Assembly: GCA_013214355.1 (NCBI GenBank) | Contig: JABSSL010000049.1 | Span: 1 to 58,309 of the forward strand | DNA: 58,309 nucleotides | Direction: 5' to 3' | From: Saprospiraceae bacterium | GTDB lineage: Bacteria > Bacteroidota > Bacteroidia > Chitinophagales > Saprospiraceae | Part shown: positions 11,719 through 52,140 of the stretch, piece after piece | Layout of the letters: the number at the start of each line of letters is the position of its first letter | Position numbering within the stretch: the first letter of the stretch is position 1 | Position numbers and translations under genes: made by a program | The notes under the pieces: generated by a model | What the model saw: the letters and a program-made list of their open reading frames with translations, nothing else | What the model was told of the DNA's origin: nothing | Databases searched by the model: none

Positions 11719-14700
11719 CTATCGCAGTAAAATAACCGATCCCATCTTGACCTCCCGCAACCCATTCAGGTATTTTATCGAAGCCTTCCAAGCATAGGCG
11801 CCCTGCGGTGCAATTTGTCCCTTGTAGAAGCCATCCCAGTATCCACCAGGTTGTTCACCATCTAGCTCCTTGGATTCCCAAAGCAATTCTCCCCAAGGAG
11901 AGAAGATCTGTAAATGAAGTTCCTCAATACCGATGCCCGCCGGTTTCCAGTATTTCACATCGCCAATGCCACTTTCAGGAGAAAAGGCGTTGGGAGCGGA
12001 GAAATTGAAAAATAGGCCCGGTGAGACAATAGCTGAAGTAGTATCGGTACAGCCATTTGGGTGAAAGGCAACTAAGGTGGCCTCCCAATCGCCATTGTCT
12101 TCGTATTCATGGCGTGGATCTGATTCTTCTGATACTTCCCCATCTCCAAAGTCCCAGAAATAGGCGGAGGCATCTATGGATCGATTCATAAAGCGCACCA
12201 ATCCCCCAGGACCAAAAGTCGGGTCTTCTTGCCAAGTAAAATCCGCAATCGGGCCACGGATCACGCGAACAGCATTCGGGATCTCAAGACTATCAAAGCA
12301 GACATCACTGTAGCTCACTACTAGCTTTAAATCGTATGCCCCTTGGGTTTCATATTCGTAGGCAGGTTGAAATTCCGTAGAAGTATTGCCATCCCCATAG
12401 TCCCACAGGAAGCGATTGGCATTCAAAGAAGTATTTTCCAGAATGAAGGTATTTCTTTCACATATCTCTAATCTACGTGGACCAAAGGAGGCCACGGGAC
12501 GGAAATTAACCCCAATCTGCTGCCTTGTTGTATCGCTGCAGCCGAAGGCATTTCGGGCAATTAAGGTAATGTCATAACGGCCAGTATCTGCATAAAAAAT
12601 GATCGGGCTATTCTGATTCCCAGTATTGCCATCACCAAAATCCCATTCAAAAGCGGCAGCACCTTCAGATTGATTGGTGAGCACTATAGGTTCATCGATA
12701 TCACAATATTGCAACTGAGCTGGAGAAAACGCACTGGTTGGAGGGGCATAAGCCTGCACATTGAAAACGGCAATATCGGTAAAGCAGCCATTGGCATCTG
12801 TACTCTTGAGTGTCACAGAGAAATTACCGGCTTCAAAATAGGTGTGACAGGGATTTTGATCCACACTACCTTCTCCATCGCCAAAATCCCATTCATAGTA
12901 AGCTGCTCCTTGGCTAGTATTGGTAAAGCAAACCGTAAAGGGTAGACAGCCGTCCGTATCGGATGGCGCAAAGCTAGCTACGGGATTGGGCAGAATCTCG
13001 ATGGTACTGCTGATACTCGACGGACAATTATCGGAGGAGGAAAAAACCGTTAAGACTACCTCATAAATGCCAGCAGAATCGAAGGAGTGCTCGGGATTCA
13101 CGAGGAGTGAAACTTCTCCATCGCCGAAATCCCATTCTGCTGCACCGACATCCGGCGAGGTATTTTGAAACAAGACCGCTTCCCCTATACAGGCGGTAGG
13201 CTGGTGGGTAAAGGAAACTTCAGGTGCCGGAAACACCCGAACATCAATGCTTGCCGTATCAAAGCTGCAACCGTTCGTTACATATTGGTAGACGGTAAAT
13301 GTTCCTAAGGTATCATAAATGTGCGTTGGGCTAGCCTGATTAGAGAAATTCCCATCACCAAAGTTCCAGGTCACAGTAGAGCCTGGCGTAGAAAAGTTGG
13401 TGAAGTTCACCTCTAAAGGCTGACATCCACTAGTGGTATCGATATTGAAAAAGGGATCCACATCATTGGGATTAACCACGATTTCACGATTTAAGGTATC
13501 AGCACCACATTCGTTCGTCGCAATCAAGGTAACGGTATAGACGGTAAAGGTGGAGTCATTGGTCGTGTACTTCTGATCTGGAGGAATAGAGTCACGTGAC
13601 ATCACCCCATTACCCAAATCCCAGAAGTAGTTCTCTGGATTTCCGGCAGTGATATTAGCAAAGCGGATAGGCAAGGGAGAACAGCCATCATCGATATCTG
13701 TACCAAAGTCCACAATCGGTTTAGGAAATACGGTAATAGAATCTGTATCTATAACAGAACCGCAACCATTGATCGCCGTCAAGGTAACTACATAGGTGGT
13801 ATCATCTCTACCTTGATCAAATAGAATCGTTCCTGGATTGGCTTCATCACTTAAACGTCCATCGCCAAAATCCCAATTATAAGTGACACCCACCCCGAGG
13901 CTTTCATTATCAAAGTTTACGGCTAGTACCGCACACCCCTCTCTGACATCGGGCGTGAAAGCTGCCGTTGGTGGGATAGTCACGGAAACATCTCTTTGAA
14001 AAACATCCACACAACCATCACAAGAGGTAATAGTGAGCGTGATTGTATAATCTCCAATAACGGTGTAGGTATGCGTTGGTACCTCTTCCGTGGAGGTCGA
14101 ACCATCGCCGAAATCCCATTCGTAGGAACACACCCCAATGGAGTTATTTTCCAAAGTAATCGGTTCATTGAGACAAGTCGTACCAATCACTTCAAAAATG
14201 GCCTCTGGTACTGGAAAAACAGTAACGGTAACTCGATCGGTGGCAGCACATCCTACTTGATCATTACTGACCGTATATTCTAATGAGTAGATTTCATCCC
14301 CTTGTAAGGTGCTGGGATCAAAAAGGCCGTTGATGGAATCAATAATACCTGGGCCTCTCCAGGTACCCCCGACTGGCGTAAAACCTGAAAGGGCCAGTAC
14401 GCCATTACTCTGGCAGATTTGAAAATCATCACCAGCATCGACACCAGATAGATCAATAACTGAGACATCCACTTGGTCACTAACCTCGCAGCTAGTACCT
14501 GGAGAGAAGGTATAGGTATACACAAAATCTCCTCCTCCAGCTGCCTGTAAGTCGATCTCTCCTGATTCCATATCGATTCCGGGGCCTGACCAAACACCTC
14601 CCCCTGGCGTACCGATCAACTGTACTTGCCCTTCATCTATACAAATGGTAAAATCATCTCCTGCCTCAGCGGTTTGCGGTTCTTCCAAGATAATCTCCAT

Positions 14701-17031
14701 CTCATCAGAAACCGTACAAGCCCCCTGCATATAGGTAATCATCACATCAAATCGATCACTATTTTGGGCCTCCCCTACTGTACTTTTGAAAATACCATTA
14801 GGCGCATCGATAATCCCTGGGCCAGTCCATTCCGTTGTACCACCGGGAGGGTCTAGATTGAGGCCGACTTGGACCGGTAAATTGATCAGCGCATCCGTTC
14901 TACAAAACGTAGCAGATGGAGGCAAACCAATAGTAGGTAGAGCTTGCACGGTAACTGGAACATCTCGCGTTACCACGCAGCCATTAGCATCTGGGAAAGT
15001 ATAGGTAAGGGTAAGATCCCCTGGAGTAACTTGTTGCGGATCGAATTGTCCCAGCGAAGGATCAACTACCCCGAGGCTACCACTCCAAGTACCTCCAAAT
15101 GGAGTGAAATCCAAATTGTAAACTGGAGCATCTTCGCAGATCAATACATCTGATTCGACCGTAACCTCTGCCGCTGGGAGTACTTCAAGTTCTAGCGTTT
15201 GCGATTGGTCACAAGCCCCTTCTATCAGGCGATAGGTAAGCGTGTAGGTTCCTGGGCCTGCTTGCCTTGGATCAAAAACGCCTTCAGCCGTGACTGCCGT
15301 ACCCGACCAACTTCCACCCCCGGGAGAAACATCAAGCGTAATGGGACTAGAGGTATTACAGATAGCATCTGTCGGCTGTGTGATTTGAATAGAGGAGGGG
15401 GTTTGAACCTCTATCGTAGTAGAATCCATAATGGTTCCACAACTACTGCCAATTTCAATAACTACGAGTCCCCCGGTATTGAATAATATGTCACTGGGAA
15501 AGGGATCCGTAGAAGATCCAACCGAGCCATTCTGAAAAGTCCAATTATAGCTAGTGATATTGCTCTCTGAAATATATTGTACGGATGGCGTATAAGAAAG
15601 GCTACCACAGGCAGGATCTACAGCGGCTAGGTTCACATCAGGCGCCTGGAAAACCTCGACTTGGACGGTACTTTCCGAACTACAAACACCATCTCCGTAC
15701 TGATACCTGATGGTATGGGACCCTACTCCAGCATTAGCCGGGTTAAACACCCCATCTGGATTCACTCCCGGCCCGGACCACTGCCCATCTGCCGGTGTTG
15801 CGGTAAAGCTAACCGGATCATCACTAGTACAAAACGTGGTATTAGGACCAGGTCTTTGAATATTAACCGGATCGCGGCTTTGTACCACGACCTGAATGGT
15901 ATCCGAAATAGACCCACAAACATTATTGATCGCTTCGACAATTACCTCATGACTACCTGGTGTGTTAAACACAACCCCGCTGGGTGCCGCTTCGGTGGAA
16001 GTTGCAGGCTCACCATTTTCAAACCTCCATCGATATTCAAAAACAGAACCGGTATAGCTGACTTGGTTGCCAAAATTTACCGTCACACTTTCACAACCGG
16101 GGGGAACAGGTTCCAAGTTAACAGTGGGCGCTTCAAAAAGCTCTAAAGTATCTGCCCAGACATCTTCTCCGCAAATATTCCGCGCTCGTAAGCGGAATAT
16201 GTACTCCCCTGGTCCGATTACTCGAACCTCCGGCTCCTCTGCAAATTCATCCGTATCATTGATATATAGGACATTGTTGGTTGGTGTGATGTCCCATTCA
16301 AAATTAGTAGCAAAGTTCGATTGGTTCCGCAAGCGGATATTTACCGGCGTACAGCCGTTGGAAGGAGTAAATTCAAAGGTAGCATCGGCCTCTGGGCTAT
16401 CGTATACCGTAATGATCTGGTTGTAGGTAGCAATTCCGCAAAAACCATCGGTAGTTAATCTAACATTGTACGTTCCAGGTCCACCAAAGGTGTGAGAAGG
16501 ATTCTCCTCGGTTGAGGTAGTACCATCTCCAAATTCCCAACGGTAGGTGGCATCCGGATCAGGACTACAACTTTGGTTTTGAAAGTCTACTGTCAAATCT
16601 GGTGTACATAGGAATTCTGGTGCATTGAACGAAGCCTCGGGTCTAAGCTTGATAAAAATGGGCTTAATAACGAAGTGGTTAAATTGTGGGCATTCTGGAA
16701 CGATCGCATCCAGTCGTAAACTAACGTTAGCCTCTCCACCCGGTGTGTTACAAACACTCTGATCTTGAAACAAGTATACGTGCGTCGTATCAGAGCGATT
16801 GTACATCGTATCTTTCGTACCATCTCCCCAGTCCCAAATGTAAATGACATCCATATTTCCTGCCTCATCCGTCGTATTGGCTACCGGAATCACTTCTCCT
16901 TCACAAATATCATTCGTCAACAGTTCGTAATTGGCGTCCATTCGAGAGCCATCACATTGACTCCATAGATCAGGTACGAAGCTGAGTATCGCAATTACAC
17001 TACACAACAAGAGTTTGTATCTGTAGGACAT
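11719..17031 (-). CDS. Giant PKD-repeat surface protein with T9SS type B tail
   Basis: 1770 residues. A signal peptide (about 1-24) is followed by roughly twenty Ig-like units. Twelve carry the PKD core W-[DEN]-x-G-[DN]-G (such as WDFGDGSTS), in one group near the N-terminus and a long run from about 960 to 1680. Between them (about 390-950) are six units of another type with GGxWSGPGV followed by a G-[VI]-F motif. The end (about 1690-1770), with FNFSAPNAFSPE, LQIFSPWGELLWES and GYWDG, is the gliding-motility-associated/T9SS type B sorting domain, which sends the protein through the type IX system to the cell surface. Adhesion or gliding is plausible. No catalytic domain is visible. Confidence 0.93.
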   Translation of the reverse strand: MSYRYKLLLCSVIAILSFVPDLWSQCDGSRMDANYELLTNDICEGEVIPVANTTDEAGNMDVIYIWDWGDGTKDTMYNRSDTTHVYLFQDQSVCNTPGGEANVSLRLDAIVPECPQFNHFVIKPIFIKLRPEASFNAPEFLCTPDLTVDFQNQSCSPDPDATYRWEFGDGTTSTEENPSHTFGGPGTYNVRLTTDGFCGIATYNQIITVYDSPEADATFEFTPSNGCTPVNIRLRNQSNFATNFEWDITPTNNVLYINDTDEFAEEPEVRVIGPGEYIFRLRARNICGEDVWADTLELFEAPTVNLEPVPPGCESVTVNFGNQVSYTGSVFEYRWRFENGEPATSTEAAPSGVVFNTPGSHEVIVEAINNVCGSISDTIQVVVQSRDPVNIQRPGPNTTFCTSDDPVSFTATPADGQWSGPGVNPDGVFNPANAGVGSHTIRYQYGDGVCSSESTVQVEVFQAPDVNLAAVDPACGSLSYTPSVQYISESNITSYNWTFQNGSVGSSTDPFPSDILFNTGGLVVIEIGSSCGTIMDSTTIEVQTPSSIQITQPTDAICNTSSPITLDVSPGGGSWSGTAVTAEGVFDPRQAGPGTYTLTYRLIEGACDQSQTLELEVLPAAEVTVESDVLICEDAPVYNLDFTPFGGTWSGSLGVVDPSLGQFDPQQVTPGDLTLTYTFPDANGCVVTRDVPVTVQALPTIGLPPSATFCRTDALINLPVQVGLNLDPPGGTTEWTGPGIIDAPNGIFKSTVGEAQNSDRFDVMITYMQGACTVSDEMEIILEEPQTAEAGDDFTICIDEGQVQLIGTPGGGVWSGPGIDMESGEIDLQAAGGGDFVYTYTFSPGTSCEVSDQVDVSVIDLSGVDAGDDFQICQSNGVLALSGFTPVGGTWRGPGIIDSINGLFDPSTLQGDEIYSLEYTVSNDQVGCAATDRVTVTVFPVPEAIFEVIGTTCLNEPITLENNSIGVCSYEWDFGDGSTSTEEVPTHTYTVIGDYTITLTITSCDGCVDVFQRDVSVTIPPTAAFTPDVREGCAVLAVNFDNESLGVGVTYNWDFGDGRLSDEANPGTILFDQGRDDTTYVVTLTAINGCGSVIDTDSITVFPKPIVDFGTDIDDGCSPLPIRFANITAGNPENYFWDLGNGVMSRDSIPPDQKYTTNDSTFTVYTVTLIATNECGADTLNREIVVNPNDVDPFFNIDTTSGCQPLEVNFTNFSTPGSTVTWNFGDGNFSNQASPTHIYDTLGTFTVYQYVTNGCSFDTASIDVRVFPAPEVSFTHQPTACIGEAVLFQNTSPDVGAAEWDFGDGEVSLLVNPEHSFDSAGIYEVVLTVFSSSDNCPSSISSTIEILPNPVASFAPSDTDGCLPFTVCFTNTSQGAAYYEWDFGDGEGSVDQNPCHTYFEAGNFSVTLKSTDANGCFTDIAVFNVQAYAPPTSAFSPAQLQYCDIDEPIVLTNQSEGAAAFEWDFGDGNTGNQNSPIIFYADTGRYDITLIARNAFGCSDTTRQQIGVNFRPVASFGPRRLEICERNTFILENTSLNANRFLWDYGDGNTSTEFQPAYEYETQGAYDLKLVVSYSDVCFDSLEIPNAVRVIRGPIADFTWQEDPTFGPGGLVRFMNRSIDASAYFWDFGDGEVSEESDPRHEYEDNGDWEATLVAFHPNGCTDTTSAIVSPGLFFNFSAPNAFSPESGIGDVKYWKPAGIGIEELHLQIFSPWGELLWESKELDGEQPGGYWDGFYKGQIAPQGAYAWKASIKYLNGLREVKMGSVILLR

Positions 17032-22413: not shown

Positions 22414-23706
22414 TTAGGCTAGATCTAAGCCCTTTTGCCTGAATAATAACCATTGAAACAAACCACGAGCAATCATGAACACTAGGAGAGCTAGCCATAG
22501 CCCATGGTTGCCATAGCTTTGCTGAAACAGGTAATAGGTAGCAAAATATACGATGATCGCCAAGAGCATGCTATTCCTCATTGCTTTGGCTGCCGTCAGA
22601 CCGATGAACACGCCATCCCAAATGTAACAAGGCGTGCTTAATATCGGAAAGATAACCATCCAGATAAGAAAGGGGCGTGCCGCTTCCAGAACGTCCGTTT
22701 TATTGGTAAATAGTTGTAAAATGGAATCCCCTAGTACGCCATAAATCAAAGCATATCCAGCGGCCAAGCCCATTCCCCACCAAAAAGAGAGGGCAATCGC
22801 TTTGGATGTTTTTGGGCGATCTGCCGCTCCCGCATATTTACCGACTAAACTCTCTGCGGCAAAGGCAAAGCCATCTACCCCATAGGACATCCAATTCAAG
22901 AATTGCAGGAGAATCACATTGGCAGCCAGAATTAGGGCGCCCTCCTGAGAAGATTGGCTATAAAAGAAGCCGAAGGCCAAGGTGAGGCAAAAGGTGCGCA
23001 GAAAGATATCCGCGTTTAAGCTTAAAAAGGCTTTCAACTCACTCCAAAGTAAGAGTGCTTTGGTACTAAAGTGATCCAAGAATTTGCGATAACGGCCGAG
23101 GAAAAGAAGAATGGCTATGAGCAGGCCCATGTATTGCGCTACTACGGTTCCATAAGCAACGCCGGCCGTTTCCATCCCATATTCCCGCACCAGGATCCAG
23201 CTCACTACGATATTCGTGATGTTAACAACTAAAGTCAGGATAAGTGGCAAGATCGCATTCTGCATCCCGAAAAACCAACCAAGAATCGCATAGGAGGCGA
23301 GCGTCGCCGGAGCTGCCCATACACGAATATAGAAGTATTCTTCCACCAATGGACGTTGCTCCTCTGATATGTTGAGTAGATAAATGGCTCCTTCTGCCAA
23401 GGGGTATTGCAATAGCAAAATAAGCGTGGCCAAGATCAAAACTACCAGCATTCCCCTTCCGAGAGTGGTCATAATAGCCGCATCATCCTGGCGGCCGTAG
23501 GCTTGAGCCGTGATGCCAGTGGTGCCCATCCGAAGAAAACCAAAATTCCAATAAACGAAGTTGAAGATCATGGATCCCACCCCCACGGCCCCAATGTGAA
23601 GGGCTGTTAAATGCCCCATCAGCAGCGTATCTACGGAGCTCAACAAGGGTACGGACACATTGCTGAGAATGTTGGGTACAGCTAGTTTGAGCAGCTCTCG
23701 ATTCAT
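22414..23706 (-). CDS. MATE-family efflux transporter, DinF-like
   Basis: 430 residues from ATG 23706; a frame 19 codons longer opens at 23763, but residues from MNRELLKLAVPNILSN are the usual MATE N-terminus. Twelve hydrophobic helices run in two six-helix halves. The motif around LLSSVDTLLMGHL in helix 1 and the CYIWDGVFIGLTAAKAMRNS stretch in the C-terminal half fit the DinF branch. These proteins exchange Na+ or H+ for cationic drugs or metabolites. Divergent from the ligase-PASTA gene, with a short shared promoter region. Confidence 0.92.
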   Translation of the reverse strand: MNRELLKLAVPNILSNVSVPLLSSVDTLLMGHLTALHIGAVGVGSMIFNFVYWNFGFLRMGTTGITAQAYGRQDDAAIMTTLGRGMLVVLILATLILLLQYPLAEGAIYLLNISEEQRPLVEEYFYIRVWAAPATLASYAILGWFFGMQNAILPLILTLVVNITNIVVSWILVREYGMETAGVAYGTVVAQYMGLLIAILLFLGRYRKFLDHFSTKALLLWSELKAFLSLNADIFLRTFCLTLAFGFFYSQSSQEGALILAANVILLQFLNWMSYGVDGFAFAAESLVGKYAGAADRPKTSKAIALSFWWGMGLAAGYALIYGVLGDSILQLFTNKTDVLEAARPFLIWMVIFPILSTPCYIWDGVFIGLTAAKAMRNSMLLAIIVYFATYYLFQQSYGNHGLWLALLVFMIARGLFQWLLFRQKGLDLA

Positions 23707-23803
23707 AGGTTTTCTTTTTGTAGTCTGGTCGTTCGAGGCTGCAAAGAAAATGGAGTTTCTCAATATTCTCTACAAAAAATGAGCAAGGGTATCCAATTTA
23801 AGC

Positions 23804-23811: not shown

Positions 23812-23836
23812 CGCCGACATGAGCGCCAATAGCGAT

Positions 23837-26800
23837 ATGAAAATAAAAGTAGGTATCTTTTTTGGCGGCCCATCTAGAGAAAGAGAAATCTCTTTCGCAG
23901 GGGGCCGGACAGTGTACGACAACTTGAACAAGGCTATTTTTGAGCCACTTCCCATCTTTGTTGATAGTTATCGAAACTTCATCCTTTTAGATTGGGCTTA
24001 TATTTACAAAGGCTCCATTCGCGACTTTTTCCCACCCGTAGCAAGCTTACCCGAATCTCCCAATGCTTTTCAAATCTATCAGGAGAGTTTAGGAGAGTTA
24101 TCCGATGCGGAATTGGATGCATTGCTGAACCAAGTTGGTCAACGTATAGAGGCGAGTGAACTGCCTCAGCTGATTAATGTGGCCTTTTTGGCACTACACG
24201 GGATCTATGGAGAAGATGGACAGATCCAACAGCAATTGGCAGACCTTAAGATACCCTACACTGGCAGTGGCGTAGCGGCTAGTCAATTGGGTATGGATAA
24301 GGCGAGGCAGAAGGAGGTGATGGGAGAAAAAGGCTTTCCGTGTCCAAAGGTGATTACCCTGACTAAGCCAGAATGGCTTGATCGCGGAGATAAAGACTAT
24401 TTTGAAGAAGCAAAGGAACAGATTGGTTATCCGATGGTAATTCGGCCAGCTAATCAAGGATCTTCCATTGGAGTATCCATCATCCAAGCATCCGAGGGAG
24501 CGCGTGGTTTTCATCAAGCCATGGATCAGGCCTTCTTCCGTTGGCGATTGCCAGTGCTGAAATGGAGTGGCATGTCTGATGAAGAGAAGGTGGCGTATGT
24601 GAGAGATCTTACGGATATCAGACATGGTTTAGGTTTTCCACTACATCTGCAATATCAGGAACACGCAGCTACCTACTATCATCCTGAGACGCTACTGGCC
24701 TACCTCAATAGCTTACCGGAGGAGAGCGACGGGATCGCCTTGCTGGAAGCCCAGCAATCAGAAGAGAAAGTCATCATAGAAGAATTCATCGACGGGAAGG
24801 AGTTTTCTTGTATCGTGATTCGCATGGCGGACGGTAGCAGTGTGGCTTTACCTCCTACCGAGATCATCAAAGGACAGGAACTCTTCGACTACCGATCGAA
24901 ATACATGCCCGGCCTATCCCGCAAGCTTACACCGATTGATTTGCCGGATACCCAGATCAATGACATCCGTAAGGAATGTGAGCGTTTGTTTGAAGAACTA
25001 GATTTTCAAACCTATGCACGTATTGATGGCTTCATCACTGAGGAAAATATCTTTTTGAATGACCCGAATACCACTTCGGGTATGTTGCCTTCCTCTTTCT
25101 TTTTCCATCAGGCGGCAGAGATTGGCCTGAACCCGTCCCAGTTCCTGACCTACATCATTCGAACTTCTATTCAGGAACGAATTGTTGAAGAACAAGAGAA
25201 AGCCTCTTATAAGGCGCTATTGGCGGTGGTGGATGATGCTATCGCTTCCCTCCAAAATCAGCAGAAGGAGCGTAAGAAGATTGGGGTAGTACTAGGAGGG
25301 TACTCTGCGGAGCGGCATATTTCAGTAGAGAGTGGTCGGAATATCTTTGAAAAGCTGGCGAGTTCTGAGGATTACGAAGCTATTCCCATTTTCCTGTCGG
25401 GAAGCGCTGAGAAATACGAGTTTTATCAGTTGCCGATCAACCTTTTGTTGAAGGATAATGCTGATGATATTCGGGACAAGATAAAGACCTGGAAAGCTCA
25501 TCCCATTATTGAAGATATTAAACAAACTTGCCAAAGTGTTACGGATAAGTATGCCTCGGCAGAAGTCGTGTTTGCGCCACAACAATTGACCTTAGATCAA
25601 TTGGCCAAGAAAGTGGATGGCGTTTTCATTGCTTTACACGGCAGACCAGGGGAAGATGGGCAGTTGCAATTGCAGTTGGATGCGAAAGGCGTTCCCTACA
25701 ATGGGTCAGGAGTGAAATCGTCAAGTTTGACGATCAATAAGTATAAAACGCTACAAACTTTAAAGGCCAATGGCTTTAAGGTAGCCGGACAATTATTGCT
25801 GGGTAAAGCTATCTACGAATCAGATCCCGGTTCCTTTTATCAAGAGGTGGAAGCTACCTTTAACTACCCAATGATAGCCAAGCCAGTTGATGATGGCTGT
25901 AGTGCGGCGGTAAAGGTGTTGAAAAACCGTGAACAGCTGGAAGCTTTTACGCGCTTGATCTTTCGTCCAGTGGGTACCGATGATGCGAGCTCTAGAGAAA
26001 TTCTGGCATTGCAACCGCAGGAAGAGTTTCCTGCCAAGGAAGATATCCTTTTCGAACAGTTAATTGTACGAGAGGAAGGGGTTCACTTTCTAGAGATTAC
26101 GGGGGGACTATTGACGAGGTACAATGAGGACGGCGAACTCACTTACGAAGTATTTGAACCCAGTGAGACGCTTTCAAGCGGAGCTGTTTTGTCGCTGGAG
26201 GAAAAGTTCTTGGCAGGGGAGGGGCAAAATATCACACCCGCGCGCTTCGCAAGCACTGCTGCTAATTATGAATCGGTGGCTTCACAAGTGAAAGCTGATT
26301 TAGAAAAAGCAGCGAAAATCTTGAACGTGCAAGGTTATGCACGGATTGATGCTTTTGTAAGGGTATTGGCCGACGGAACCGCCGAAACTCAAATCATAGA
26401 GGTCAATTCCTTACCTGGTATGACGCCAGCTACCTGTATTTTCCATCAGGCGGCGGCGGCGGGCTACAAGCCCTATCAGTTTATTGATCAGATCTTGACT
26501 TTTGGTTTTGATAAAAAGGCTAAGGCTTTGGCCCCGCCGGTCGTGCCTGTGGAAGAAGTGCCTGTTTCAACAACGCAAGAAGAGGTAGCTGTTGCAGTGG
26601 AGAACGATGAGGTGGAGCCGGTAAATAGCACCATTACAGATGACTCCGGTGCTAGTTATATCTCTTATGCAGATCCATCTGAAACTACCGTCAGTGAACC
26701 AACAGTCGGGCCGGAAGATGAATCCTTCTTAGGTAGACTGAAAGCACGAATTGTAACACCCGTTTGGGAATTCTTAAAAGCCCCAATATTCTTGAAAAAT

Positions 26801-27538
26801 CTAGCGGCCATTCTTGGGTTTGTACTTTTGCTCTTTATACTGACCACCGCTTGGTTGAGGATGTACACCGACCATAATGAATCCATTCAGGTGGAGGACT
26901 ATGTTGGAATGACCGTAGAGGAGGCGGTGCGTAAGGCAAAGAGCCGCAGTTTCAAGGTGGTAGTAGATTCCCTGTATGTAGCGGGCAATAAGCCCAATGT
27001 GATTTACAGTCAAACGCCGGAAGCTTTTTCAAGGGTCAAGGAAAATCGAACGATCTTCATGGTGCGCACGACAGCTAAAGGTGTGCCGATCCCCTTTAAG
27101 CCCTCGACAGAGGATTTTCAAGGGGCAAAATCTTATCTCGAATCCCGATCAATTATCGTCAATGAACCCAAAACGATCTTCAATGCTCGAAGACCTGAGG
27201 GCACCATCGTAGAGGCTACCTATAACGGTAAGACCTATCCTATGAGTCAATTGCGAAAAGAGGGGCTTGAGATTTACCAGGGAGAATCTATCGATTTTGT
27301 GGTATACACCCGAGTTTCCGATTACGTGGGCTTGCCGAATCTAGTTTGTAGAACCTTCTCAGAGGCTGAATTCTTGATTCAATCCCGCTTTTTGAAAATG
27401 GGGGTTATCCATGGTAACAAACAGGGATCAGCTTATGTATATAAACAGGAACCAGCTTATGTTCCTGATCAATCGATCCGGAAGGGAACGACCATTAGTC
27501 TGTTCCTGACATCCAGCGAACCGGATGACTGTGAATAG
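23837..27538 (+). CDS. Tandem D-Ala-D-Ala ligase modules fused to membrane-anchored PASTA repeats
   Basis: 1233 residues from ATG 23837 (ATG 23819 adds six). Module 1 (1-465): GIFFGGPSRERE, HGIYGEDG near 120, glycine loop QGSSIGVS near 205, FDYRSKYMPG, RIDGF near 394, NDPNTTSGM near 406. Module 2 (478-900): GVVLGGYSAER, HGRPGEDG near 600, DDGCSAAV near 685, EEKFLAGEGQNITPA, RIDAF near 835, EVNSLPGMT near 855. An acidic linker, one membrane helix (about 989-1010) and three PASTA-like units (about 1020-1233) follow. Ordinary Ddl is about 310-370 residues and soluble. The ligase half should be cytoplasmic, joining D-alanines for peptidoglycan, with PASTA outside, where such domains bind muropeptides or wall proteins. 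Not a simple duplication: the modules have diverged strongly. Confidence 0.88.
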   Translation: MKIKVGIFFGGPSREREISFAGGRTVYDNLNKAIFEPLPIFVDSYRNFILLDWAYIYKGSIRDFFPPVASLPESPNAFQIYQESLGELSDAELDALLNQVGQRIEASELPQLINVAFLALHGIYGEDGQIQQQLADLKIPYTGSGVAASQLGMDKARQKEVMGEKGFPCPKVITLTKPEWLDRGDKDYFEEAKEQIGYPMVIRPANQGSSIGVSIIQASEGARGFHQAMDQAFFRWRLPVLKWSGMSDEEKVAYVRDLTDIRHGLGFPLHLQYQEHAATYYHPETLLAYLNSLPEESDGIALLEAQQSEEKVIIEEFIDGKEFSCIVIRMADGSSVALPPTEIIKGQELFDYRSKYMPGLSRKLTPIDLPDTQINDIRKECERLFEELDFQTYARIDGFITEENIFLNDPNTTSGMLPSSFFFHQAAEIGLNPSQFLTYIIRTSIQERIVEEQEKASYKALLAVVDDAIASLQNQQKERKKIGVVLGGYSAERHISVESGRNIFEKLASSEDYEAIPIFLSGSAEKYEFYQLPINLLLKDNADDIRDKIKTWKAHPIIEDIKQTCQSVTDKYASAEVVFAPQQLTLDQLAKKVDGVFIALHGRPGEDGQLQLQLDAKGVPYNGSGVKSSSLTINKYKTLQTLKANGFKVAGQLLLGKAIYESDPGSFYQEVEATFNYPMIAKPVDDGCSAAVKVLKNREQLEAFTRLIFRPVGTDDASSREILALQPQEEFPAKEDILFEQLIVREEGVHFLEITGGLLTRYNEDGELTYEVFEPSETLSSGAVLSLEEKFLAGEGQNITPARFASTAANYESVASQVKADLEKAAKILNVQGYARIDAFVRVLADGTAETQIIEVNSLPGMTPATCIFHQAAAAGYKPYQFIDQILTFGFDKKAKALAPPVVPVEEVPVSTTQEEVAVAVENDEVEPVNSTITDDSGASYISYADPSETTVSEPTVGPEDESFLGRLKARIVTPVWEFLKAPIFLKNLAAILGFVLLLFILTTAWLRMYTDHNESIQVEDYVGMTVEEAVRKAKSRSFKVVVDSLYVAGNKPNVIYSQTPEAFSRVKENRTIFMVRTTAKGVPIPFKPSTEDFQGAKSYLESRSIIVNEPKTIFNARRPEGTIVEATYNGKTYPMSQLRKEGLEIYQGESIDFVVYTRVSDYVGLPNLVCRTFSEAEFLIQSRFLKMGVIHGNKQGSAYVYKQEPAYVPDQSIRKGTTISLFLTSSEPDDCE

Positions 27539-27686: not shown

Positions 27687-30203
27687 ATGAGAACTGTCTA
27701 CTTATTATTTGCCTTTGTCTTGTTCGTCAGCGGACTACAGGCACAGGAACTGATCCCATTGCAAAACAACAACTACTTAAGACAGCTACAGGAAACTGCT
27801 TCTAAAGACTTCCCAAAGGAAAGAGCAAATCCCAAAATGGTTTGTCCAGTAGAGGAAGAAGGAGTCATCTATGTAAATACCGGCGAAGAGGCACTGATCG
27901 AAATTCCAATCGATACCCTATTAGCTGGAGATGATGGTGGTTTTTTTAGATGTGATAATTGCGATCAAGCCAATTTTGGAATCGCTAGCATCATGGGCAA
28001 TGAACTTTCTTATTCTCCTTTGACTGGATTGGTGGGTAAGGATTTTATCCAGGTCAGCTTCTGTAGCAATGCGGACCCTAATAATTGTTTTGATCAAGTA
28101 ACTATATCGGTGGTGGCTCGACGCCCCGGCCAAAATATTTTCCCAACTACCTTTGTATTGGCTCCAGATGATGAAGTAATTGCCACGGCGATCCCTAATT
28201 TGCCGGGTCAGTTGACTTGTAGTTCTATCGAGGAATGTGAGGATAATTATGAAGGAAGAGACCAAAGGGTAATTCCTATAGATGACACCCGCATTTTTTA
28301 TCGTGCGAGTGCTTTTGCGGGAACGGACTCCCTTTGTCTGGTTATCTGTGATGACTTTGCCATTTGCGATACCTATCACTTCAGCTTTAGAATCACTTCA
28401 GATACGCTTTCCTTGCCTTTCATGGATGATTTCTCGTACGACGGGCCTTATCCCTCGCGGAGCCATTGGCTAGATCGAGAGGCATTCCTCAACAATACAA
28501 TGGCAGCTGGTCCTCCTTCCATAGGGGTAGCATCTCTGGATGGCCTCGATCCTCAAGGTGTGCCATACGGCGGTGGAACAGGTGAAGCTGATCGCTTGAC
28601 GTCCAAGTATTTGAATCTAAAAGGTGCTAATGGAGACCTCGTTTTATCCTACTGGGTACAAGCAAGAGGTTTGGCGGATAAACCGGAAGAATCAGATTCT
28701 TTAATTCTGGAATTCAAAACATTAGATGGAAAGTGGATAGAAATTGAAAAGATACCAGGCTTACTTAACAGCGAGCCATTAACGAGTAATCGGCCTTTTG
28801 AGTTCTATGCTATTTCTGTGCCGCAGGAATATAGATATAATGGCTTTCAGTTTCGCTTTATAAATATCGCGGATCGACGGGGGATGAATGATGTTTGGCA
28901 TATTGATTATGTGCGATTGGATGGTGTACAGATTGATACCTTTATCAATGATATTGCTTTCACGGAGCCGCCCCGGCCGATTCTGAAGAATTATACTAGC
29001 CTACCTTGGCGACATTTCCAAGGTCTCGGAGCTGATGAATTGTCTAGAGATATCTCGGTTGGCTTGTACAATCACGCAAACCAGGGACTGCTGGCTGATC
29101 CAAGCAGCCTAACCTTGCAAGAGCTGACCACCAACTTGAATCCCTTTTTTGGTTCACTAGTATTGCTAAACGGACAAGAGCGGAATGTCACAGAGAAATC
29201 GGCTTCTAATCGAACCTATTCCTTAGATGGTGACCCCGTATTTCCGGATGTTTGGGCTAATTATGCCCTGATTATGGAGGGGCCAAGTTTTGACAATGTT
29301 TCAGGACCAGTTCGCTTCCAGATGAACTACAGTCTTTCCAATAGTACACAGGTTAACACATCCGGTTTTGAAGCCATACAACGTAATGATTTTGTGTCCT
29401 ATACTACTGTTTTTGATAATCAGTTTTCCTATGATGATGGAACGGCAGAACTGTCTTTGGTTTCTGCTCCAGGTACTGACGTAGCGATGAAGTTTACTGC
29501 GGGAGTGGCTGATTCTTTACAGGCAGTAGCCATCCACCACCCTTTCGCTACTGCAGTAGATGTTGAGGAACAGTTTTTTCGTCTGAAAGTATGGGTAGGG
29601 GAGCTCGATGATAGTCCGGAATATCAAGCCGTTTTAAATCCCTTCTTCGCTACTAACAACTTCGATACTTTACAAGGCTTCACAACCTACTTGTTAACTA
29701 ATGATGAAGGCGAGGGAGAAGCTCTATATCTCCCACCTGGGGACTTCTATGTCGGCTGGGAACAAGCTTCTGCTTGCGATTTCAATCAGTGCGTTCCGGT
29801 GGGATATGATCGCAATCAACCTCAGGCCTTGAACTTTACTTTTAGAAATGCCGGTGTACAATGGGAGCCTATTAACCTATTTATTCCAGGTGCTTTGATG
29901 ATTCGGCCAATTGTCGGAAGCGAAAAGCCCATCTCTACGCCAGTTGAAGAGATAGAGAAAGGACTGACTGAAGTAAAGTTATACCCCAATCCAGCTCGGG
30001 ATCAGTTATTTGTGAAGCTGTTAGAGGCGAATTATGATGACTACGAGTATACGCTGTTTAGCCAAGTTGGACAGCGACTTAAATATGGGGTTTTAGAACC
30101 AAGTATCTCCCTAGATGGTTTGATTAATGGGACTTATTTTGTGCAGCTGCGCAATGTAGATACCAATCAAATCGAAAGACGAAAACTAATCATTATAAAA
30201 TAG
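27687..30203 (+). CDS. Secreted protein with T9SS type A sorting tail
   Basis: 838 residues. A signal peptide (about 1-19, ending LQAQ) precedes an extracellular part with paired cysteines (RCDNCDQ, CSSIEECE, CLVICDDFAICD), suggesting disulfides. The middle (about 245-400) holds a jelly-roll-like region (FMDDFSYDGPYPS and KYLNLKGANGDLVLSYWVQ) resembling carbohydrate-binding or MAM-like folds. The last 80 residues (VKLYPNPARDQLFV ending in RRKLIIIK) are a T9SS type A sorting domain. No catalytic motif seen. The rhodanese gene begins seven bases after its stop, so the two are probably cotranscribed. Confidence 0.85.
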   Translation: MRTVYLLFAFVLFVSGLQAQELIPLQNNNYLRQLQETASKDFPKERANPKMVCPVEEEGVIYVNTGEEALIEIPIDTLLAGDDGGFFRCDNCDQANFGIASIMGNELSYSPLTGLVGKDFIQVSFCSNADPNNCFDQVTISVVARRPGQNIFPTTFVLAPDDEVIATAIPNLPGQLTCSSIEECEDNYEGRDQRVIPIDDTRIFYRASAFAGTDSLCLVICDDFAICDTYHFSFRITSDTLSLPFMDDFSYDGPYPSRSHWLDREAFLNNTMAAGPPSIGVASLDGLDPQGVPYGGGTGEADRLTSKYLNLKGANGDLVLSYWVQARGLADKPEESDSLILEFKTLDGKWIEIEKIPGLLNSEPLTSNRPFEFYAISVPQEYRYNGFQFRFINIADRRGMNDVWHIDYVRLDGVQIDTFINDIAFTEPPRPILKNYTSLPWRHFQGLGADELSRDISVGLYNHANQGLLADPSSLTLQELTTNLNPFFGSLVLLNGQERNVTEKSASNRTYSLDGDPVFPDVWANYALIMEGPSFDNVSGPVRFQMNYSLSNSTQVNTSGFEAIQRNDFVSYTTVFDNQFSYDDGTAELSLVSAPGTDVAMKFTAGVADSLQAVAIHHPFATAVDVEEQFFRLKVWVGELDDSPEYQAVLNPFFATNNFDTLQGFTTYLLTNDEGEGEALYLPPGDFYVGWEQASACDFNQCVPVGYDRNQPQALNFTFRNAGVQWEPINLFIPGALMIRPIVGSEKPISTPVEEIEKGLTEVKLYPNPARDQLFVKLLEANYDDYEYTLFSQVGQRLKYGVLEPSISLDGLINGTYFVQLRNVDTNQIERRKLIIIK

Positions 30204-30210
30204 TCATCAC

Positions 30211-30519
30211 ATGGATATAAATGTGCAAGAATTAAAAGAAAGGCTTGATAAAGGCGAAGAGCTCGTATTGATTGATGTTCGCCAACCCAACGAGCACGAA
30301 GAGTTCAATGTGGGAGGCAAATTGATCCCCTTGGGCACGGTGCCAATGCGAATGAGTGAGATCACTGAGAATAAAGATGCGGAAGTTGTGGTTTACTGCC
30401 GTTCTGGTGGTCGAAGTGGCCAAGCTAAGCAGTTCTTAATGCAAAATGGCTTTACTAATGTTCGCAACCTGCAAGGGGGGATGTTGGCGTGGGTAGATGC
30501 TTTTGGAGCGACTAAGTAA
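30211..30519 (+). CDS. Rhodanese-like sulfurtransferase domain protein
   Basis: 102 residues, a single rhodanese domain covering the whole protein. The active-site loop is YCRSGGRSG, with the persulfide-forming cysteine at its start, as in GlpE/PspE-type enzymes. Strands IDVRQPNEHEEF and the end NVRNLQGGMLAWVDAFG are typical. It moves sulfane sulfur to an acceptor, perhaps in detoxification or sulfur trafficking. No signal peptide, so cytoplasmic. Seven bases downstream of the T9SS protein; no functional link between them is evident. Confidence 0.92.
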   Translation: MDINVQELKERLDKGEELVLIDVRQPNEHEEFNVGGKLIPLGTVPMRMSEITENKDAEVVVYCRSGGRSGQAKQFLMQNGFTNVRNLQGGMLAWVDAFGATK

Positions 30520-31016: not shown

Positions 31017-31631
31017 TTAGTTCTTTCGTTTCACAAAAGCATCAATACCTTTGGTTTCGACCTCCGTAGCGAGTTTGTTGGCAGATTTAGCATCAGTAAA
31101 GCGACCTACTAAGGCTACCGCTAAAGATCCTCCGTTAAAGCTGGCTACGCGAGCATCATCAAAGCCCAACTGCTTTAGTCGCCGTACTTGCGCCTCTGCA
31201 TTGGCCTTTTGCTTAAAGGATCCCGCCAACACCAGGAAGTCCCCTGCGGCCGCAGTTTCCGTGTCGAAGCTAGCAGGTACTTCTTCCTCCGGTTCTTTTT
31301 CTTTTGCTGCGATAGGTTCTGTTTCTTGAGTGGGGCTTTCGTCTTCGTCAGCCGAACCTTCCTCTTCTTCTACTAGCGTGCCATTATTTACACTTAGATC
31401 TTCATCATCTAGATCACCTTCTTCAGCGGCGATGGGATCAACAATCCGTCCTTCATCATCAAAAGTTAGGGTATCCGGGGGAGTAGTTTCCTTATTTTCC
31501 TGGACCTGGATGGAGGTAATGGGAGATGCGTTTTTGAGCTCGCGTAATTTGATCGTTTTGTACACTAGGTACCCCAATGCCGCTAAGCAAAGGCCTACAA
31601 TCAAAACGGTAAATGAGTCAAGTTTCGACAT
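31017..31631 (-). CDS. Membrane-anchored SPOR-domain protein
   Basis: 204 residues. One N-terminal helix (about 7-27) anchors it in the inner membrane. An acidic, low-complexity linker (about 40-125, rich in Asp/Glu/Pro) follows, then a SPOR domain (about 128-204) with FLVLAGSFKQKANAEAQVRRLKQLGF and VALVGRFTDAKSANKLATEV. SPOR domains bind denuded glycan strands at division sites, so a cell-wall or septal role is likely. The layout resembles FtsN-like proteins, but essential-FtsN features cannot be judged. First gene of a two-gene transcript with the acetyltransferase. Confidence 0.88.
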   Translation of the reverse strand: MSKLDSFTVLIVGLCLAALGYLVYKTIKLRELKNASPITSIQVQENKETTPPDTLTFDDEGRIVDPIAAEEGDLDDEDLSVNNGTLVEEEEGSADEDESPTQETEPIAAKEKEPEEEVPASFDTETAAAGDFLVLAGSFKQKANAEAQVRRLKQLGFDDARVASFNGGSLAVALVGRFTDAKSANKLATEVETKGIDAFVKRKN

Positions 31632-40260: not shown

Positions 40261-41244
40261 ATGATCTCTTTGGGTAAAGTTTTCCGCAAGTACACCGGCG
40301 CATTGCGTCAATATAAGATTCTGTATGTGCTCAATAATTGGCTGAATCGACGCCAGCTAGCGCATAATCGCGCCCTGTACCGCAAATATGGATTGCAGAA
40401 AAGCATACTTAGTAATATCGGAAGCAAGGATTTTCCAGCACATCATGAAGATATTCCTTGGCTCGATCGCCCGAATGCCAGGGAAGAGCTGGAGCAGCAT
40501 CCAATTTTTCTTGCGATGCCGCCTGAACAGCAGGCGGAAATCCGAAGATTTGTGGAGGAGGGCTATTTAATTCTTAGAGGCTTCTTCTCCGAAGATGAAG
40601 TTGAGCAATTGAATGAAGAGATCGAGGAATTGATGCAGCAACAGCAACTTGACTTCAACTACACCGGCCGAAAGATCATGGAATCCTATAAGCATTCCCG
40701 TACCGCGAATGCCTTCTTCCGCGATGCTCGTTTGCTAGAGCTACTCCAATTCATCATGGGAAAGCCTATCATCCCTTTTCACACCATCAATTTCATTGAG
40801 GGGAGTGAGCAGAGAGCGCATTCCGATTCTATCCATATGACCACGGAGCCGCAAGGATACCTAATTGCGGCCTGGATTGCCCTGGAAGAGATTGGTCCTA
40901 ATCAGGGTCCGCTCATTTACTACCCCAAATCTCATCGCCTGCCCTATATCACCACCGAAGATTATTCTTCAGGTCATACCCGTTGGCGGCTAGGGGAGTT
41001 TGCGAATGAACGTTTTGAAGATGAAATTGAAAGTGTAGTAGAGACGAATCAGTTTGAAGCTAAAACCTTCCAGGCTCAGAAGGGAGATGTGCTACTATGG
41101 CATGCCAACCTAATTCACGGAGGAACAGCGATCACAAAAGCAGGAGCTACCCGGAAGAGCATGGTAGCTCACTACTTTTGTGAGGATGTGATCTGTTATC
41201 ATGAAATCTCTCAACGACCTGCTTTACTCTCCCTGCAAGACTAG
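40261..41244 (+). CDS. PhyH-family Fe(II)/2-oxoglutarate dioxygenase
   Basis: 327 residues. The double-stranded beta-helix fold of the phytanoyl-CoA dioxygenase family is visible: RFVEEGYLILRGFFSEDEVEQL at the start, the iron-binding HxD pair (RAHSDSIHM, about residue 187), the segment GPLIYYPKSHRLPY, the distal iron His in LLWHANLIHGG and the 2-oxoglutarate Arg in GATRKSMVAHYF. The catalytic set looks complete. The substrate is unknown; bacterial members hydroxylate lipids, amino acids or secondary metabolites. Its final 21 bases overlap the convergent metalloprotease gene. Confidence 0.9.
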   Translation: MISLGKVFRKYTGALRQYKILYVLNNWLNRRQLAHNRALYRKYGLQKSILSNIGSKDFPAHHEDIPWLDRPNAREELEQHPIFLAMPPEQQAEIRRFVEEGYLILRGFFSEDEVEQLNEEIEELMQQQQLDFNYTGRKIMESYKHSRTANAFFRDARLLELLQFIMGKPIIPFHTINFIEGSEQRAHSDSIHMTTEPQGYLIAAWIALEEIGPNQGPLIYYPKSHRLPYITTEDYSSGHTRWRLGEFANERFEDEIESVVETNQFEAKTFQAQKGDVLLWHANLIHGGTAITKAGATRKSMVAHYFCEDVICYHEISQRPALLSLQD

Positions 41245-44200
41245 TTTGAAGGAGCGAGTTGCTCCTAGTGATTGAAGCTGTAGAAAGTAAACGCCTGCTG
41301 GCAGGCTACGAACATCAAATTGGAAGTTCTGAGCCAGTGGTATCCCTGCTCGTCTCCTCAATGTCTGTCCCTGTAGGTTTACCAAACTTACCTGGATTTC
41401 ATCCTCCCAGGGCTCATCAAATACCAGCTGAACTTGCTCCTCTGCAGGATTGGGGAAAACTCGTATCTGGGCGGCTTGAATGGGGTCTATCGTACCTACT
41501 ACCGCATTTTCATCAATCTTTATCTGAAAGGCTTGCGTTGGAAGCCATCCTCCTGTTCCATCTTCCACAATGAAAGTAAATTGATCGAAGATAATATCGG
41601 TACCATCGTGCTCATATACGACTCGATTGTCATTAATGTGGGCTTGTAGGAATTGATCTCCTGCCTGAAGCGGTACTCCATCCAATAACACATTACCGAA
41701 AGCAGCTGGGGTGATAATGGTGTAAGCCAATTCTAGTGAACTTTGATCGGGATCTTGGATCTCTAGCTTGCCACGCGTAATGATGTTGAATTGGTTAGGC
41801 GGAACAAAGAGGGTGTCATTTGTCAGAATGGCAGGCAAAGACGGATTCAAAGAAGCACAATATTCCAGGGTCCATTCCTCAATTCGGCCACCTCCACCAA
41901 ATCCAGACTTTACGACTTCCGCTCTCAGGGTCCAGTCTCCCTGCGCATCTTCTCCATCAAAGGCATCCAAGGGTTCTACCGGCTGGAAAATGAGGTTGTC
42001 ATCTGGAGCACATTGGATCGGCTCTGGAGCATCACTATCAAAACCAATATCGATGTTGGTGGTATTTCCGCAGTTTTGATCAAATAGTACCACCTCCGTA
42101 TTGTTTGGACTAATGACGGTAAACCGTAGACTATTCACGGGCTGGAAGGATCCTTTTATTCTAGGAATATTTAGGTCAGAAATCGTTCCTCCTTCCGGTA
42201 CATTAATTTGCAATTCTCGCGTAGGAAGACCTGAGCCGGGTAAGATTACGGGATCCCCCATACTCATAATGGTAACACAGGCCGCTGTAGAAGTCTGAAA
42301 GGCAAAAGGTGCCGAGAAAGGACCATCACCACAGGCGTTCTGGGGTTTGATTCGCCAAAAATAAATCTGATTGCCTTCAAACTGAATACTGGGACTAAAA
42401 GTAGATCCGGAGATCTGATCTTCTTGTAAAATGATGGTTTCAGGAGAAAATATCGGACTAGTAGAAACTTCGATCCCGTAGGAGTCTGCATTTTCAGTTG
42501 GCATCCAACTAAAATCTGTGGATAGCACAATGTCACGAGTTCCATCCGCTGGACTCATTAAGGCTAAATCGGAAAAATCATTAGAGACCGTGCTGATTCT
42601 AACATCTCGATATATAGTATCTGTTCCGGAATAAGCTTTGATCAAGAAGTCAAAAGTGCCCTCGGAGAAATCCTGTAAAGATAAATTGAGCTGACTACTT
42701 TGATTAGCCTCAATGGGGTTTTGACTAAAGCTCGCTGTGGTATTGGCAGGAAGATCTCCGACTACTTCCAAGGTAATAGGACTACTGAAGCCCGCCGTAG
42801 CAGCAGCATCGATTTGTATGCTCACATCTGTAGGTGGGCATAGGTTGAGAGCGGCTAGGGGATCTACGCTCAAACTAAAACTCGGACTCTGACTCGCCTC
42901 TATTGTGAAGTCTCGATTGGAGATATCAAAGAAGATATTGTTAGCTGCTGCAACCATTACCCTTGCGTCATTAGTGCTTAGTTCGGGTACGGTAACGAAA
43001 GCTTGGCCGTCATTTGCCGTTTCGGCCAGTAGTAGGATAGGATAGCTAAGGCCGCCGTCGGTGGACAAATAGATGTTTACTTTCTGACAATTTACAATCT
43101 CATTGTCTGTATTAGCAACATCCCAGGTCACTTCAGCTGAGCTGCCTGCTGTCCAGTTGTCAAAGGTGGTATTTGGAGCTGTCACAAGAAAGGGACCTGC
43201 AGTGTCAGAGGATTTAAAGGCTACTTCTGTCCATGCTACGCCTCCCGCTTCTGGGTTATTATCTCTGGCCGTACATCTGAAGGTTAAAAAGCGACTATAA
43301 GAAGGCAGTACCTCAACATCTAAAGTAGCATTATTCAGGAGTGCCCCGAGATTGGGGAAATAGCGAGTCGAGTCTTCTACTGGTGGATAAGATCTGAAAA
43401 GAGGCGCATCTCCCATGGGATTACCCAATTGACTGGAAGGCCCGACGTCAAATTGCTCCCAACAATAGGTAAGGGCATCTCCATCTTCATCGGATGCACT
43501 AGCGCTTAGCCGAAATGGCGTATTGATTGGAATGGTAAAACCATCAATATATTCATTGGTGATCGTTGGAAGATGATTATTGGTAGGGGTGATGGTGGGG
43601 CAGTTATTTCCTCCATCCTCTCGGCTAAATTCAATGAAGTCTTCCAAGGATCCAATGTTGTAGTAGGGGTCTGCATTGGGCTGGACGTTATTCGATCCAC
43701 AAAGGCCAGCATAAGACATGATTGTACTCCCGCTACCCGGCTCAAAGGCATTGGAAGGGGAAAGCTGTGGAGCTGAATTGGGGCAGTTGTTCCAACTATG
43801 CCCACAGGAGAACTGATGGCCAATCTCATGGGCCATTACATCCACCGCAATTCGTTCAACGTCATTGGTGAAGTGACAGGTTACACCTGCACCTTTGTTA
43901 CTTTGACATACGGAACTCGGATTGGCTACTCCCGCAAGCCCGTTGTCACAGCCACGGGTAAAAACATGCCCAATGTCGTAAGTGCCGAAGCCAATTCTGG
44001 CATTGATTATAGCGGTGTTTTGGGCTAGGAGCTGGGATCCATTGCGGGCATCTAAGTAAGGATCAGTAGCTGGATCTAGAAAGATTAGCTCATCATTCCG
44101 ATCAATAATCAACAAGCGGATGGCTACTTCTTGCTCGAAAATCAAGTTTATACGATTCACCGCCGTATTCATGGTGGCCAAAACTAGTTCTACGGTTCCT

Positions 44201-44892: not shown

Positions 44893-44967
44893 ACAGGTTA
44901 TTGCAAATTTTTATTGAGTTTCATCACGTATCAATGACTTGTGACGAAGGATTTTTTACCAGAACGA

Positions 44968-44993
44968 CAAAATTAAGATTGCAGCATATACAA
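44968..44993 (-). promoter_or_regulatory. Promoter of the metalloprotease gene
   Basis: TAATTTTG on the minus strand (44968-44975), preceded by TTG (44991-44993) with 15 bases between. Predicted leader about 70 bases. Confidence 0.45.
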
Positions 44994-45043
44994 TGGTAGT
45001 ATTAGTAACACATTTGTCGGCTTGGTTATGCAAGAAGGGCAGT

Positions 45044-48559: not shown

Positions 48560-48660
48560 ACTAGCAACAGTAATAACGGCAAATTTCAGGCCAGCGCGTA
48601 TCCTTAAGGAGAAAATATGATTTCGGAGGCTGAAATACCGAGCTCATGTCCGTGTTTTAC

Positions 48661-48700
48661 CAAAAAAAGAGGCCATCGACACCGGAGTGTGATGACCTCT
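48661..48700 (-). terminator. Rho-independent terminator of the Ig-repeat gene
   Basis: On the minus strand a 13-bp stem (outer AGAGG/CCTCT, inner ACAC/GTGT, one mismatch and one bulge, four-base loop) is followed by seven T. It sits about 63 bases past the stop at 48763, so the downstream SprA-motif gene has its own promoter. Confidence 0.85.
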
Positions 48701-48762
48701 ACACGATCATTTGCGCAAGAGATTTTTATGGGGTTATAGTGATTTGGATATCTCTAGTAAGG

Positions 48763-51700: not shown

Positions 51701-52140
51701 TTTCTAGATTGGCCATTAAGCCTGAAATCAATCTGCTCTTTACTGTTGATTTCATTGATACTCGCCTGAACTTGATAGTTAGATTCAGAAGTTTGAGTAT
51801 TGTTGGATCTAGGTTGGGTGAATAGGACGTCGGGTGCCCGCACCACAGGATCAGGAGTGACAGGCTCTTCGTAGTATATGGTTAATTTCTCTTGGGCAGT
51901 GCCTACACTGTTTGTTGCTGTTATAATTACCTCATTGGCTCCATTATCTAAACGGAAAGGCTTGCTAAAGCTACCACGATTAAAGGTAAAGGATTGCTCG
52001 CGACCATTAATGGTACAGCTTACAGCTGCCGCATTTTGTACGTGACGAATTCTTGCCCTGACTAAGCCATTGACGACTGTGGAAGTAAAAGGACGATTGT
52101 TGGGCGTAATGATTTCAATGACCGGAGCCACCAAAGTGGA
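48763..52140 (-). repeat. Twelve tandem ~275-bp coding repeats
   Basis: The repeats encode the Ig-like units of the 1422-residue protein. Units 5 to 10 are the most alike and share the ends GNNxIxIxVxN and the start PPxVxI; the first three and last two have diverged more. Such arrays can expand or shrink by recombination. Confidence 0.8.

Follow-up and report, generated by a model that had tools for sequence, protein, structure and literature searches.

Which part of a protein that joins two D-Ala-D-Ala ligase (Ddl) modules to a membrane helix and PASTA units makes the dipeptide, and what are the other parts for? Ddl is an essential drug-target enzyme and is described as a soluble homodimer. 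The gene that raises this question is located at positions 23819 to 27538 on the plus strand of a 58,309-nucleotide contig of a Saprospiraceae bacterium (GenBank JABSSL010000049.1), which was analyzed over its full length and is called the window here. This tandem gene is the only D-Ala-D-Ala ligase detected in the organism; its product is a Ddl by fold and residues, and its architecture is new. The reading that we favor, with a probability of about 0.55, is that module 1 (M1) makes D-Ala-D-Ala, that module 2 (M2) is a diverged partner that regulates it or serves an alternative acceptor, and that the PASTA part anchors and perhaps tunes the enzyme.

Architecture of the tandem Ddl-PASTA gene

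The gene is a single unbroken open reading frame (ORF) of 1239 amino acids, in which the tandem Ddl is followed by a linker, a membrane helix and three PASTA units. An in-frame ATG at residue 7 (position 23837) is an alternative start and may be the true one, since some relatives (e.g., those at loci L013 and L015) start there. A preliminary description of this DNA had proposed two Ddl modules, a helix and PASTA repeats in one polypeptide, and this is borne out by the ORF, Pfam, AlphaFold2 and Foldseek. Searches with the whole protein against Pfam yielded Dala_Dala_lig_N in two stretches (148.7 bits in total, cut-off 34.6) and Dala_Dala_lig_C in four stretches spread over both halves (187 bits, cut-off 24). 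Both motif pairs that had been pointed out were located, HGxxGEDG at residues 127-134 and 607-614 and RIDxF at residues 401-405 and 842-846. Three general Ddl models of NCBIfam scored above their cut-offs: NF002378 (361.5, cut-off 243), TIGR01205 (355.3, cut-off 245.65) and NF002528 (340.1, cut-off 262). Among the NCBIfam matches listed for the whole protein (25 of 51 families) no equivalog model reached its cut-off, and curated VanA-type models stayed far below theirs (e.g., VanA with 116.3 bits versus 775). Near-full-length matches with 38-92% identity were present in eight relatives.

Pfam, alignment and AlphaFold2 delimit the two modules, which like all parts of the gene are given on the plus strand. 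M1 comprises residues 8-456 (positions 23840-25186) and is a Ddl with a near-canonical active site; M2 comprises residues 486-900 (25274-26518) and is a diverged Ddl. They are joined by a helical connector, residues 457-485 (25187-25273), in which AlphaFold2 placed a helix at 462-484. The model of the tandem part (residues 1-914) had a mean predicted local distance difference test score (pLDDT) of 86.3 and a predicted template modeling score (pTM) of 0.87. All 50 fold matches listed for the tandem part from the PDB were Ddl or Van-type ligases, with template modeling scores (TM-scores) to the target of 0.73-0.91.

The active sites of the two modules differ

Fifteen DdlB positions, with the residues taken from the Escherichia coli K-12 gene, were compared in 100 tandem proteins; the choice of these catalytic positions and their roles is the one that we assume for DdlB. 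The proteins were drawn from 33 tandem-bearing genomes, leaving out the fragmentary G029, G042 and G046, and from 80 loci, the best 80 of at least 579 in a one-per-species genome scan, leaving out L085 and L102, which contig ends truncate, L078 and L079, which nearly replicate G002 and G001, and six duplicates. The M1 active-site residues of the window protein are E21, H127, K161, R209, S215, S216, E321, E328, K361, Y362, R401, D403, D415, N417 and S426; 13 of the 15 equal DdlB, and K144R and E270D are conservative changes. M2 equals DdlB at 12 of the 15 positions and retains the checked ATP and Mg residues. The three changes are S150C, Y216F and S281T, with C694, F797 and T872 occupying the positions of DdlB S150, Y216 and S281, which presumably line the amino-acid site of Ddl.

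These patterns are shared by 97 of the 100 proteins. The DdlB reference reads E H K K S S E E K Y R D E N S, M1 of these proteins reads E H K R/K S S E E K Y R D D N S, and M2 reads E H K K C S E E K F R D E N T. Within the 97, K144R was found in 68 and E270D in all. Identity between M1 and M2 is about 25%, and M1 contains an insertion of about 70 residues at 239-307. A tree was built from 29 single Ddls and a subset of 23 of the 100 tandem proteins; in it each module formed a clade of its own on a long branch and the two were not sisters, a placement that comes with a long-branch warning. Because the two clades are long-branched and not sisters, an old internal duplication and the joining of two paralogues both fit, and either may be the origin of the pair. 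The two modules had been regarded as a built-in dimer, but this description proved too simple: given the three invariant active-site changes in M2 and the loss of nearly all of M2 in one family, M1 appears to be the catalytic half of the pair and M2 a diverged one.

The tandem gene is the only Ddl detected in its genome

The genome (11.2 Mb, estimated to be 100% complete) was checked for another ddl, and exactly two Ddl N-domains were found, both in the tandem gene. Other matches to the Ddl C-domain were considered as further Ddls and rejected, since none is accompanied by a Ddl N-domain. Two murF matches scored above the cut-off, showing that the pathway consuming D-Ala-D-Ala is present. One of them, G000:C1:152387-153649 (L187), is located in an 826-amino-acid frame and is perhaps a fusion of MurF to another domain.

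A comparison of 60 genomes (the organism itself and 59 relatives) identified 30 with the tandem alone, 25 with an ordinary single Ddl alone and three with both; the two in which none was found are 57% and 91% complete. Among 13 further tandem genomes, 12 contained just two N-domains (four of these are Neolewinella) and one contained a third N-domain on a 529-amino-acid frame. In nearly all sampled cases of a double Ddl no further Ddl was found.

Short and decayed forms of the tandem Ddl

Two variants are natural tests of the module roles. The first is a short form in the genomes G299, G347, G443 and G408 of the family f87, each of which gave one PF01820 match (loci L176, L178, L179 and L180). 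The proteins are 551-557 amino acids long and consist of M1 with an intact active site and a tail that matches just residues ~505-580 of M2 (Pfam was run on one of them). A split into M1 and M2 genes by a stop inside the match was considered and rejected, since the ORFs encode M1 plus the stub. M1 is likely the D-Ala-D-Ala ligase, because in the four f87 genomes the only apparent Ddl consists of M1 and a stub of M2; if the short protein is the Ddl of this family, M1 seems to be enough for catalysis. The surviving piece of M2, which in the window corresponds to positions 25331-25558 (plus strand) and includes PINLLLKDNADDI, may be what touches M1 and is a candidate docking element.

The second variant is decayed. 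Broken active-site patterns were found in just three proteins, L016, L027 and L041, and their genomes (G022, G004 and G020) are exactly the three of 60 that encode an extra ordinary Ddl. The single Ddls of these genomes are intact at 15 of 15 positions. Counting complete tandem proteins, the sites were intact in 27 of 27 tandem-only genomes (the organism itself included) versus none of the three with a second Ddl. L016, L027 and L041 group together with a support of 99. All three retain the full-length PASTA fusion, which hints at a role of the fusion apart from ligation.

Linker, membrane helix and PASTA region

Downstream of M2 the protein continues with an acidic linker (residues 901-985, positions 26519-26773), identified as fast-evolving by its nonsynonymous substitution rate (dN), and with a membrane helix modeled by AlphaFold2 (residues 989-1017, 26783-26869). 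PASTA unit 1 follows at residues 1023-1080 (26885-27058), unit 2 at about residues 1090-1164 (27086-27310) and unit 3 at about residues 1169-1231 (27323-27511); all three are supported by AlphaFold2 and Foldseek, and unit 1 also by Pfam. With the whole protein as query, Pfam detected PASTA at 1023-1080 (55.5 bits, cut-off 23.2), and with the C-terminal part run alone it yielded two PASTA stretches, so that two of the three units were detected by Pfam. The AlphaFold2 model of residues 905-1239 consisted of the membrane helix and three PASTA-like alpha/beta units between about 1022 and 1231. The domain search and the fold model together thus confirmed the three PASTA-like units of the preliminary description. 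The 10-residue mean pLDDT was at least 92 from residue 1025 onward; the pTM of this model was just 0.57, owing to the disordered linker and the uncertain arrangement of the parts relative to one another. Foldseek matched the model best to the PASTA regions of PrkC and PknB; TM-scores were low (0.27-0.49 for the best five targets) when the alignment spanned several units and high when it covered a single one (e.g., 0.83 for 3ouv).

The helix is flanked by basic residues on its N-side and by mostly acidic ones on its C-side. Membrane helices follow the positive-inside rule, and the N-terminus of the helix is therefore predicted to be inside and its C-terminus outside, which would make the ligase cytoplasmic and the PASTA units periplasmic. 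With the sole detected Ddl and a predicted periplasmic PASTA part in one chain, the earlier view that the gene ties precursor synthesis inside to PASTA outside was upheld.

To compare constraint along the gene we used dN and not ratios, since the synonymous rate was near or beyond saturation. Compared with its two nearest relatives, the window gene had dN values of 0.038-0.044 in M1 and M2, 0.026 in the helix and PASTA part and 0.24-0.34 in the linker; with a third relative, dN was 0.15 in M1, 0.11 in M2, 0.14 in the helix and PASTA part and 0.77 in the linker. As the values are similar, M2 and PASTA are about as protected as M1.

Spread of the tandem Ddl and origin of the PASTA fusion

A profile built from 19 tandem proteins was run against 395 genomes of the class (E <= 1e-130) and matched in 175 of them. 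Without the short-form genomes G299, G347 and G443, the tandem is present in up to 172, in some as fragments only. More than two Ddl N-domains were counted by eye in six of the 172 (G115, G119, G218, G336, G368 and G403), some of them in fragmented genes. Among the 80 loci, 18 were fused to PASTA and 62 were unfused. In 46 of the unfused loci the same strand carried a PASTA match less than 400 nucleotides downstream, and in 23 of these 46 it overlaps the ddl match. Relatives thus either keep the fusion, in one clade, or mostly carry adjacent ddl and PASTA genes. The tandem Ddl is widespread in the class and hence no novelty of this gene; the PASTA fusion alone is clade-specific.

All 24 fused proteins among the 100 lie to one side of a single branch (one state change, support 99). 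On the present tree the fusion apparently arose once, as a merger of an old pair of neighboring genes, the tandem ddl and the PASTA gene. Named carriers are Neolewinella persica, N. xylanilytica, N. aurantiaca and N. lacunae. Repeated independent fusions were rejected, since a single state change suffices. A seemingly longer fusion in G426 was also rejected, as its 1389-amino-acid frame has an over-long start and PASTA is a separate downstream gene. The concern, voiced at the outset, that a sequencing or assembly error had joined separate genes was not borne out and is hardly conceivable, because the 24 fused proteins share one side of a single branch; it was rejected on account of the same fusion in independently sequenced genomes, including the four Neolewinella species, which have strain names.

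In two single-Ddl genomes (loci L074 in G030 and L076 in G018) PASTA and the secreted protein described below are encoded together with no ddl beside them, and the MATE gene is also present in L076. This arrangement would fit a loss of the tandem ddl from these loci.

Proposed mechanism and alternative explanations

According to the favored reading, M1 would join two D-Ala in the cytoplasm using ATP; we infer this activity from its near-complete active site, its location in the sole Ddl and the short relatives with M1 alone. M2 would be a Ddl copy that diverged long ago; it is expected to have retained the binding of ATP and Mg, its amino-acid site is altered, and it would most likely act as a bound partner that stabilizes or controls M1 rather than as a second identical catalyst. 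The helix and the three PASTA units would place the enzyme at the inner membrane, with a periplasmic tail expected to bind peptidoglycan. The ligase might in this way be held near uncrosslinked wall or lipid-linked precursor and perhaps be adjusted to its amount. By analogy with PASTA proteins elsewhere, the PASTA part perhaps has a role in sensing and homeostasis; the PASTA region of PrkC binds peptidoglycan fragments, as stated in excerpts of a published study (PMC5786024).

Several observations weigh against this reading. A helix that crosses the membrane once and follows a fast-evolving linker is poorly suited to relaying a signal, and the constraint on M2 equals that on M1, which could equally mean that M2 is a working enzyme. 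The pLDDT is below 50 in the loops 353-366 (with K361 and Y362), 786-795 and 797-803 (with F797). The f87 form comes from four genomes of one family, and the match was assigned to the short protein from scores (the score of G443 fits). The three decayed proteins count as one contrast and not as three, because they form one group. The 100-protein tree is quick and unrooted; one of its branches (L041) is long, and 13 of its rows have an unusual composition. The 62 unfused loci also include four at a contig end and 12 without a PASTA match in the flank, and PASTA is located away from ddl in several single-Ddl relatives; because of the latter two, coupling of Ddl and PASTA is not obligatory.

M2 could be just the structural second half of a pseudo-dimer that replaces the Ddl homodimer, with PASTA just an anchor. 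This would agree with the helical connector, with the pTM of 0.87 for the tandem model and with the f87 stub (~505-580 of M2), which would suit a docking role, and the E. coli DdlB crystal has two active sites within the dimer according to the available part of its report (PMC5717164). A purely structural M2 need not, however, hold its ATP and Mg residues invariant, as is the case in 97 of 100 proteins, and we consider this explanation somewhat improbable. A receptor-enzyme is rather doubtful: here PASTA would read uncrosslinked peptidoglycan or lipid II and, via the helix and M2, determine without a kinase how fast the sole Ddl works or which acceptor it uses (D-Ala or a different D-acid). 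A tandem encoded next to a separate PASTA gene would then be a two-part version of this device.

It is unlikely that both modules are working ligases, M1 making D-Ala-D-Ala and M2 another D-Ala dipeptide or depsipeptide, so that the mix of precursor ends could be set. For such an arrangement speak the equal constraint on the two modules and the retention of the checked ATP and Mg residues in M2 next to altered amino-acid-site positions (97 of 100 proteins). In addition, it is Phe in place of Tyr, as in F797, that distinguishes the D-Ala-D-Lac ligases of lactic acid bacteria from their dipeptide ligases (PMC5996685, excerpts), but S150C and S281T fall outside the switch described in those excerpts. 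The Van models stayed far below their cut-offs on the whole protein (among the matches listed, 25 of 51 families), and most of M2 is lost in f87. We also know of no precursor with such an alternative end in Bacteroidota, which counts against a second working ligase. Quite unlikely, finally, is a fusion without a function of its own, in which adjacent and often overlapping genes lost the intervening stop and the product was tolerated. Overlapping or nearly touching genes are found in many unfused relatives, and the fusion needs one origin only; yet all 24 fused proteins of the 100-protein tree, the three with decayed sites among them, retain it and no reversal has to be assumed, and membrane tethering of an essential enzyme is a real change.

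Relation to known systems

Ordinary Ddls (E. coli DdlB, Salmonella DdlA) share the Pfam N- and C-domains, the fold and the catalytic residues of M1. Unlike them, the window protein has two diverged modules, the ~70-residue insertion and E270D in M1, the changes S150C, Y216F and S281T in M2, and a membrane anchor with PASTA. PASTA kinases (PrkC, PknB, StkP) and PASTA penicillin-binding proteins resemble it in the single membrane pass, the outward PASTA (predicted here) and the best fold matches of the C-terminal part, whereas its cytoplasmic part is a wall-precursor ligase and its seven Pfam matches include neither a kinase nor a transpeptidase family. A MurC-Ddl fusion occurs in Chlamydia and likewise combines Ddl with a second wall-pathway component in one polypeptide; in the window protein, in contrast, no MurC (Mur ligase) domain was among the Pfam matches, and the MurC-Ddl model of NCBIfam, NF011171, scored 157.7 bits against a cut-off of 1015. 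Carbamoyl phosphate synthetase is a tandem ATP-grasp enzyme and also has two diverged ATP-grasp halves in one chain, a likeness by analogy only, for its N-domains and reaction differ.

M2 resembles depsipeptide ligases in the Phe at the Y216 position, found in 97 of 100 proteins (F797 in the window protein). Unlike those ligases, M2 also carries S150C and S281T, and M1 has Tyr. We take DdlB Y216 to be the active-site Tyr of the comparison made in lactic acid bacteria. A depsipeptide ligase with Phe at the active-site Tyr is the Leuconostoc Ddl (F261), as given in excerpts of PMC5996685.

Among the matches listed from the open-access literature (titles and starts of abstracts; subscription papers are mostly outside), no paper on this architecture was found. 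Across a large share of one bacterial class, Ddl is an unequal double enzyme that is linked to PASTA by gene order or fusion. If PASTA does control the ligase, precursor supply would be tied to the state of the wall without a kinase, and Gram-negative PASTA proteins would gain a role.

Neighboring genes in the window

Downstream of the tandem gene, the plus strand encodes a protein with a type IX secretion sorting tail (27687-30203) and a rhodanese-like protein (30211-30519). Among the 49 relatives with 5.9 kb of downstream flank, downstream matches to these were present in 21 and 23, respectively. The type IX-sorted protein may share a wall function with the tandem ddl. A SPOR-domain protein is encoded nearby on the minus strand (31017-31631) and recurs in 14 of the 49 relatives; the SPOR domain binds bare peptidoglycan. 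Upstream, a MATE-family transporter (22414-23763, minus strand) is encoded divergently, with a match in 13 of the 47 relatives that have enough upstream flank. Further away, very large ORFs of 1770, 1222, 1171 and 1422 amino acids are located on the minus strand at 11719-17031 and 41224-53031.

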